Source: Empedobacter falsenii (GTDB lineage Bacteria; Bacteroidota; Bacteroidia; Flavobacteriales; Weeksellaceae). Taken from it: DNA of 43,683 nucleotides. A program made the position numbers and the translations under genes. Positions 41,460 through 42,529 of this stretch are shown one piece after another. Below the pieces are notes generated by a model. The model searched no databases. It was given only the letters and a program-made list of their open reading frames with translations, and was not told the origin of the DNA. The stretch covers positions 1 through 43,683 of the forward strand of contig NZ_JAAGKM010000023.1 of assembly GCF_019308355.1 (NCBI RefSeq). Reading direction: 5' to 3'. The first letter of the stretch is position 1; every line of letters begins with the position of its first letter.

Positions 41460-41912
41460 ATGACTGAATTAGTACAATTAAATTTTTCCGAAAAATACCA
41501 AATAAGATTGAAACAAGCCCAAGATAAATTGTATATCTTTTGTTTGATTCGAAAAAAATGGTTGGTCTATACGCCCGAAGAATGGGTTAGGCAACACGTT
41601 CTGAATTATTTAATCAACGATTTGGGTTATTCAACTTCGGCGATTGCGTTGGAAGTTGCAATTGATATTACAGGAATGCGAAAACGTGCAGATATTGTCG
41701 TTTATCAGCAAGAAAAACCATTTATTATGGTAGAATGTAAAGCGCCACTTATAGCAATTTCGCAAGCAACTTTTGACCAAATTGCACGTTACAATATAGT
41801 GTTAGGTTCTCAATTGTTGATGGTAACAAATGGATTGAATCATTATTATTGTATGATGGATTTTGTCCAAAAAAGATATAACTTCTTGAAAGAGTTGCCG
41901 AAGAAAGGATAA
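41460..41912 (+). CDS. Stand-alone type I restriction HsdR N-terminal (HSDR_N) domain protein
   Basis: A 150-residue protein made only of the PD-(D/E)xK nuclease-like domain found at the N-terminus of type I restriction HsdR subunits. The nuclease signature is intact: acidic residues in LEVAIDI, then KRADIVVYQQEKP and FIMVECKAP (Asp, then Glu-x-Lys). No HsdM or HsdS gene and no helicase part are present, so it is not a restriction system. Such lone domains are common beside holA in Flavobacteriia, as far as I recall, and their role is unknown. It is divergent from holA with a 3-base gap. Confidence 0.88.
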   Translation: MTELVQLNFSEKYQIRLKQAQDKLYIFCLIRKKWLVYTPEEWVRQHVLNYLINDLGYSTSAIALEVAIDITGMRKRADIVVYQQEKPFIMVECKAPLIAISQATFDQIARYNIVLGSQLLMVTNGLNHYYCMMDFVQKRYNFLKELPKKG

Positions 41913-41961
41913 TTTGAAAATGAGCTAATGTGTTGATGTGAAAATTTGTCAATTCGAGCGA

Positions 41962-42129
41962 TTTTAATGGATCTTGAGTACGTTTCAAACGTAACTGACC
42001 ATGTCCCGAACGTAGTCGACGTGGTTCTGAACCAAGCTGACTAGGTTCCGAAGTAAGCTAGCTTAGTATTTTAGTAAGCTGATGGGGTTCAGAACCACGT
42101 CAGCTTGGTTGTGGACGTGATTGAGTAGG
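41962..42129. repeat. Eight-unit 21-bp tandem array with palindromic cores
   Basis: Eight gapless 21-bp units start at 41962, 41983, 42004, 42025, 42046, 42067, 42088 and 42109. The middle units share the frame TTCnGAAC, then AGCTGAC or a variant, then GG. At the unit junctions GGTTCTGAACC and GGTTCAGAACC are themselves palindromes. GACGTGGTTCTGAACC (42018-42033) and GGTTCAGAACCACGTC (42086-42101) form an exact 16-bp inverted repeat across the array. The outer units (first, sixth and last) are more diverged. No reading frame fits the array. Confidence 0.75.
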
Positions 42130-42208
42130 TTGTATATTTTAATTTGTTAGATGATTAAATAAATTACTTACTTAAAAAGTTTATTGAATTTGTTTATATT
42201 TGAAAAAT

Positions 42209-42529
42209 ATGAAAGGTTGTTTTAATTTTTTAATTACTTGTATAATTTTATTGGCCTTTTGTGGCTTGATGACAGGAATTACATCAATCTTTTTTAAATC
42301 AGATGTTAAGAAAGATAAAATAATTAAAAATGATTATTATGATTTACAAAAAAATAATTATAATAATGTAAGTATTTATGATACAGTAATTAATTATAAA
42401 AATTATAACCAAAATTATAATTATATACCTTCAAGATCTGGAGCGATTTGTAACGATGGTTCTTTTTCACAAGCAACAGGAAGTGGTGCATGTTCACATC
42501 ATGGAGGGGTGAGTTATTGGGTGAATTAA
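42209..42529 (+). CDS. DUF3761 domain membrane-anchored protein
   Basis: A 106-residue product with an N-terminal membrane segment (about residues 5-24), a Lys- and Asn/Tyr-rich linker, and the C-terminal mark GAICNDGSFSQATGSGACSH followed by HGGVSYW, which is the DUF3761 pattern. The two Cys and two His residues may form a small metal or disulfide site. The function is unknown. I chose the ATG at 42209; TTG at 42200 lies in the -7 box TATATTTG (42195-42202). It directly follows the tandem array and is 17 bases before the next ORF. Confidence 0.75.
   Translation: MKGCFNFLITCIILLAFCGLMTGITSIFFKSDVKKDKIIKNDYYDLQKNNYNNVSIYDTVINYKNYNQNYNYIPSRSGAICNDGSFSQATGSGACSHHGGVSYWVN

Follow-up and report, generated by a model that had tools for sequence, protein, structure and literature searches.

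Rows of short repeats beside a protein gene are a feature of several described systems. Plasmid iterons and centromere repeats are arranged in rows, spaced by roughly two turns of the helix, next to the gene of the protein that binds them. In type III toxin–antitoxin systems the repeats constitute an RNA antitoxin and lie upstream of the toxin gene. An integron cassette is a gene with a partly palindromic attC element at its 3' end, served by an IntI-type recombinase. The available excerpt of the report on TIGR arrays describes units of 8-12-nt repeats and 9-nt spacers, RNAs of 36 nt, Nop-domain proteins, and CPR or phage hosts (PMC12045711); the array motifs differ from locus to locus, which is explained there by a symmetric dimer of the protein (PMC12045711). 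In Porphyromonas gingivalis, BrickBuilt is a MITE minisatellite with 23-nt tandem repeats in 18-19 copies per genome, bearing a leader and a tail with terminal inverted repeats, as far as the excerpted account goes (PMC4596501).

We analyzed a stretch of 43,683 nucleotides from Empedobacter falsenii (the window) that contains an array of 21-bp units at 41962-42129. Comparable arrays occur behind the genes of one protein family, here called the partner protein, across the Bacteroidota. A complete module, as we propose it, would consist of a gene for a protein of about 163 amino acids, usually a terminator-like hairpin, and then 5-15 degenerate units of 21-22 bp. Such a module is like iterons and plasmid centromeres in having rows of roughly two-turn pitch beside a protein gene (with binding presumed here), and unlike them in that its units are strand-symmetric and strongly diverged and that, in the genomes seen, its genes lie on the chromosome. 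The partner protein had no match to plasmid Rep or Par proteins, and one member was without a match in a plasmid collection.

The module resembles TIGR-Tas, as excerpted, in that one protein gene is accompanied by an array, that each unit contains two alternating elements and that the motifs vary between loci; it differs in its 21-22-bp pitch and in the lack of spacer-like columns (PMC12045711). No Pfam match to the Nop family was found among 46 partner proteins. The combination of one protein gene with a tandem repeat array is also that of type III toxin–antitoxin systems (treated in PMC8860590), whereas the array here mostly follows the gene, from which a terminator-like hairpin usually separates it, and is without covariation. 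Like an integron cassette, the module has a partly palindromic 3' element and is present or absent at a given site; unlike one, it has a terminator-like hairpin before the array, a single gene family and several units. BrickBuilt is similar in being an intergenic tandem repeat of comparable unit size in the Bacteroidota, and dissimilar in that its excerpted account names no partner protein (PMC4596501). The arrays are also unlike CRISPR, which combines conserved repeats, unique spacers and cas genes, since their units drift over the whole length and the 46 proteins had single weak PADLOC matches only.

The 21-bp array of the window

The preliminary description of this DNA had recognized a 21-bp period in spite of differing units and had proposed an autocorrelation check. 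The self-match of the array is 0.51 at lag 21, 0.52 at lag 42, 0.49 at lag 63 and 0.51 at lag 84, as against 0.255±0.036 at lag 21 in 2000 dinucleotide-preserving shuffles, none of which gave a self-match that high at any of the lags 2-61, so that the period is significant. Tandem Repeats Finder did not report the array at score 30 because its units are only about half alike. No open reading frame of at least 80 amino acids covers the array, which is real and non-coding. A coding-repeat reading was rejected on this ground and on that of the pitches of 21.5 and 22 found elsewhere, which do not suit codons; a guide-spacer reading was rejected since the units drift from a single consensus.

Seven of the eight units originally claimed (41983-42129, no strand assigned) fall on one profile with the half-site pattern GGT tc n ga AC. 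The first (41962-41982, likewise without strand) is weak, being in phase by eye and outside the reach of profile extension. The palindrome GGTTCnGAACC, described as forming the unit borders, is exact at two of them (42023-42033 and 42086-42096) and degenerate at the remainder. An exact 16-bp inverted repeat is present, as had been reported, with arms on the forward strand at 42018-42033, which contains GGTTCTGAACC, and at 42086-42101, which starts with GGTTCAGAACC; its center is at 42059.5. An equally good inverted repeat arose in 8% of 60 trials in which the order of the units was shuffled (p = 0.08 for the best inverted repeat), so the exact repeat of the array adds little to the palindromic unit. 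The array matches its own reverse complement at 68% across 120 bp, and its dyad score is 0.45 against a mean of 0.25 over offsets, with the consensus gGTtc.gaAc.

On the left, the array adjoins an HSDR_N_2 gene (41460-41912, forward strand) that is present in all 14 genomes of the genus; on the right lies an open reading frame (42200-42529, forward strand) with a sub-threshold DUF3761 match, a neighbor that we do not consider part of the system. The protein neighboring the array has its best named relative in Empedobacter brevis (90%). Immediately left of the array, at 41941-41968 on the forward strand, is a degenerate end copy of an interspersed repeat of the TCAATTCGAGTGATTTTT type, 88-92% matched to six other places in the genome. 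This interspersed repeat, also seen at L003-L008, has TCAATTCGAGTGATTTTT and TTCTCGATACAATTTTT ends and adjoins the L119 module (below) as well. Elsewhere in the window, an Rfam Flavo-1 RNA lies at 378-489 (62.5 bits, gathering score 42).

A period-21 array stands behind the HSDR_N gene in two of the 14 genus genomes (G000, score 0.56; G004, 0.53), with scores of at most 0.43 in the other 12. The G004 array, the only other one at this site among the 14 genomes, is 91% alike to the window array across 128 bp and looks about double its length by eye; G011 has the G004 flanks and lacks the array. A second array in G004, at another place, matches the window array at 79% over 61 bp (E 1e-6) and stands behind a partner gene broken by two stop codons. 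An intact homologue of this broken gene occurs at L110 in another genus, beside a different 21-bp array that matches only weakly. G004 also has a second, intact copy of the gene, L119; the 21-bp array behind it is AT-rich and quite different in sequence. One genome can thus hold several divergent gene-array pairs.

The window array has the 21-bp pitch and dyad half-site pattern of the modules and no adjacent partner gene. None was matched elsewhere in its genome either, a draft rated 99.98% complete in which a gene could have been missed because it consists of 95 contigs. Since the partner gene was found neither beside the array nor elsewhere in the genome, we favor, on balance, reading the window array as the DNA half of a Bacteroidota gene-array module, present as a solo copy. 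With its gene missing, the array is probably a relic.

The preliminary description had also noted a likeness in style to a 22-bp array at 172-259 of the window. This array is real, with units that contain GAAGCTTC palindromes, and it is like the modules in pitch and double-dyad build; its kinship with the 21-bp arrays is unproven. At exact 22-bp spacing, the GAAGCTTC set gave 18 matches at 14 places in five of the 14 genus genomes, against none for a reversed control, and a 5S-tail signature accompanies six of the 14 places. Genomes G010, G011 and G012 have the GAAGCTTC set and no match to the partner protein. At one intergenic peptidase site (L301 1300-1527, L297 546-846), G012 carries a 22-bp GAAGCTTC array, and G004 the partner gene with its 21-bp array.

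The partner protein and its association with arrays

The partner protein has about 163 residues and the pattern MPI.NLN..HL, ER..YGSINEQNKL, HD.DNYQ.AL.DY. Of the 197 family genomes sampled, 75 contain it, spread over 15 of 33 genera, with seven weak or partial matches left out of the locus set; in the class and phylum samples it was found in 37 of 395 and 25 of 296 genomes, respectively. No credible match was found in Pfam, NCBIfam, PHROGs, PADLOC or PDB, and searches of the open-access literature yielded no publication on this protein-array pair. An identity as MobP3 relaxase was rejected, as the NCBIfam matches were weak (found in 8 of the 46 proteins, with E 1e-4 at best, and reaching 20 bits in L119 where the cut-off is 150); these matches fall on the helical tail region of the relaxase model. 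Pfam matches to LTXXQ (3 of 46 members) and DFF-C (1 of 46) were too weak, and a match to IFT70 (E 0.015) was not accepted. The family members searched had no plasmid or phage matches; the sole viral match was judged false because it is to an apparent tape-measure protein and lacks an array.

Behind the gene, within 600 bp, the score exceeds 0.5 at 70 of 109 loci, and ahead of it at two of 111. Here the score is the best of periods 21, 22, 42, 43 and 44, with genes oriented. Among controls it exceeded 0.5 in five of 1054 segments around another gene and in none of 288 taken from distant parts of these loci. When all periods from 12 to 30 were allowed, period 21 scored best behind the gene at 82 of 158 loci, period 22 at six and another at four, with none in 288 controls; the remaining 66 fell below the cut of 0.5. 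Seven duplicates had been removed from the 158-locus set, in which L232 and L279 still have one tandem gene pair in common; places present twice in an earlier scan (L110/L120, L119/L121) were later dropped. The period scan of the class and phylum samples covered 53 loci (L230-L282), and the pattern recurs in many of these more distant loci as well. The further arrays that the preliminary description had expected in related genomes therefore exist, behind the partner gene across the Bacteroidota, at 88 of 158 loci with period 21 or 22. The gene and its array would seem to be the two parts of a single system.

There are exceptions to the usual arrangement. The array precedes the gene at L120, L231 and L264, and in one clade it is 0.4-1.1 kb away. 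At L232 and L279, two tandem copies of the protein gene are followed by a single long array of about 640 bp. At L068 (1429-1806), in Flavobacterium saliperosum, a 21-bp array of near-identical units (TGCCCAACTCCTGCATTGACC) occurs at a locus without a partner gene. Outside the loci such arrays are rare: none was present in 798,420 sampled bases of G000 and G004, where the two period-21 matches were 7-bp microsatellites.

Seven clade loci picked for their distant or missing arrays (L202, L209, L212-L215, L218) are situated among restriction-type genes, namely type I restriction-modification subunits, GmrSD-like genes, AAA genes with type II restriction endonuclease matches, and a GIY-YIG/Schlafen-type helicase; an XRE-like gene lies ahead in several of them. 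Elsewhere the neighbors of the module are mixed, with any other family near at most 12 loci.

Symmetry, folding and spacing of the arrays

Among the 90 arrays scoring above 0.47, 52 have strand symmetry above that of column-permuted units at P<0.05, and 38 are not significant. When 48 arrays were aligned on their dyads, conservation peaked at ±3 and ±8 and was lowest at the two dyad centers, with the average pattern TTTnGGT..n..ACCnAAA; symmetric arrays are favored in this set, which was chosen by a dyad cut. Among the variants of this common pattern is the GGTTCnGAACC seen in the window. Units of the 21-bp class carry two half-sites in inverted orientation, averaging ACCnAAA and its complement, and half-sites accordingly recur about every 10.5 bp, or one turn of B-DNA. 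A second class of arrays accompanies MALDNLIS-type proteins and has pitches of 21.5-22 and, in part, CCCCTT/AAGGGG half-sites.

The array could instead act as RNA, with its own promoter and a repeat RNA that is bound or cut by the neighboring protein in the manner of a type III antitoxin or of TIGR. A gene with a repeat array is the layout of both those systems. The window array folds well on both strands (z -4.6 and -4.9), and the stretches around 87 arrays, flanks included, folded better than their unit-order shuffles (mean z -1.0 and -0.8). The fold signal was only apparent, because the stretches took in terminators; it was gone on array units alone (mean z 0.06±0.12), and a dedicated hairpin or RNA was rejected. 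No preferred hairpin was found among 76 arrays, a set that excludes those of period 43, since the best inverted repeat compared with unit-order shuffles had a mean z of 0.06±0.12 and 8 of the 76 were at p<=0.05.

Other features of the loci also bear on an RNA role. In 74 arrays there was no covariation between the arms of the dyads (excess complementarity -0.004±0.005 within dyads), and the units drift from a single consensus without distinct spacers. A terminator-like hairpin separates the stop codon from the array at 42 of 66 loci, compared with one after shuffling. Promoter-like boxes directed inward from beyond the array were not in excess (6 of 74, shuffled 6). Ahead of the gene, TAnnTTTG, which we take to be the flavobacterial -7 box, lies within 120 bp at 32 of 111 loci, against 10 when shuffled. 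The lack of covariation, the lack of a dedicated hairpin and the hairpin between gene and array thus lend no support to a small-RNA role at the level of sequence, and we consider it quite unlikely that the array acts as RNA. Palindromy in the consensus without pairing covariation agrees more readily with phased sites for a protein than with hairpins in an RNA.

The arrays might also be neutral minisatellites, copies made by slippage that are now decaying and have no function. Adjacent units resemble each other slightly more than units farther apart do (lag-1 excess 0.023±0.006), near-identical units occur at L208, L252 and L165, and arrays do change length by whole units, all of which would be expected of such repeats. 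Against this, arrays behind a single gene family have a common pitch throughout the phylum, the symmetry and phase-locked pattern are common to unrelated arrays, and the sampled bases described above contained no such array. The arrays also have few indels beside many substitutions, 3 per 708 (one of exactly 21 bp), as compared with 18 per 484 in the spacer between gene and array (Fisher P 4.5e-5); these counts come from 28 pairs whose genes are at least 80% identical, some with members in common. The depletion of indels is biased because the arrays were picked for an unbroken period; it supports selection on array spacing but is not proof of it. We regard decay of a functionless minisatellite as very unlikely.

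Divergence, mobility and a possible mechanism

Over 39 pairs, arrays were 75% identical and genes 86%, with the array the more alike of the two in five. In 56 period-21 arrays, after removal of all pairs with any flanking DNA in common, the similarity of array consensuses followed the identity of the proteins (r 0.34; 0 of 2000 permutations); a laxer version of the test took out only pairs with flanks matching within about 1.2 kb. Consensus similarity was 0.33 at protein identities below 30%, 0.43 at 30-40%, 0.39-0.40 at 40-60%, 0.54 at 60-70%, 0.70 at 70-80% and 0.81 above 80% (9 pairs), and at the low end similarity does not rise steadily with identity (0.43 at 30-40% against 0.40 at 40-60%). 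Shared descent and mutual adaptation explain the correlation equally well. The preliminary description had envisaged a family of fast-changing arrays that keep period and palindromic core but not sequence. Period and dyad symmetry are indeed retained far beyond this genome, and change is faster on average; the sequence, however, is not free but constrained, with a phase-locked pattern in 48 arrays and a consensus that follows the protein type.

The homologous blocks of 10 module pairs start 21-97 bp ahead of the gene and, in nine of the 10, end no more than 50 bp from the end of the array. Five genomes (G002, G010, G011, G012 and G013) lack the L119 module at the corresponding site and have other sequence between the common flanks. 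Given these boundaries, the consensus that tracks the protein, and the absence of L119 from its site, gene and array behave as one block.

These observations could also be caused by a mobile gene cassette of which the array is the recombination end, with the recombinase, integron-like or other, acting in trans and the protein as mere cargo. The bounded blocks, the site empty of L119 in five relatives and the existence of solo arrays would agree with this, as would a tyrosine recombinase beside L110/L120. However, a crude recombinase pattern was present in the flanks of just one of 111 loci, neither exact ends of insertion nor duplications of the target were found, and the cargo is always the same family, though that family was itself the search query. 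Displaced flanking DNA was common to five of 13 inspected pairs, and some of the apparent moves of the module may be rearrangement at one place. That the array serves only as a cassette end, with the protein as a mere passenger, seems unlikely to us.

In the mechanism that we propose, the protein would bind its own array as a dimer or oligomer, at sites that lie in a row on one face of the DNA. What stands against binding is the acidity of the partner proteins (in 99 of them, a median pI of 5.2 and a net charge of -5), together with the lack of any match to known DNA-binding families. The purpose of such a complex is a guess: it could move or keep the cassette, or restrain the protein. We suggest, tentatively and at clearly less than even odds, that the modules constitute a new two-part system, in which a small acidic protein of a new family would assemble on a helically phased, strand-symmetric array of its own with a pitch of 21-22 bp, the two would move jointly as a cassette without a transposase and diverge in a matched way, and solo arrays would be left where the gene is lost.

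With the partner protein in 75 of 197 family genomes and in other families of the Bacteroidota, the modules could be a test case for the co-evolution of proteins and their DNA sites, and genomes with several divergent pairs would offer naturally separate pairs. The restriction-type surroundings of seven loci in one clade make a role in, or against, phage defense a candidate. If the protein assembles on its array, the module would represent a new nucleoprotein; if it does not, the array would be a new kind of cassette end or RNA.
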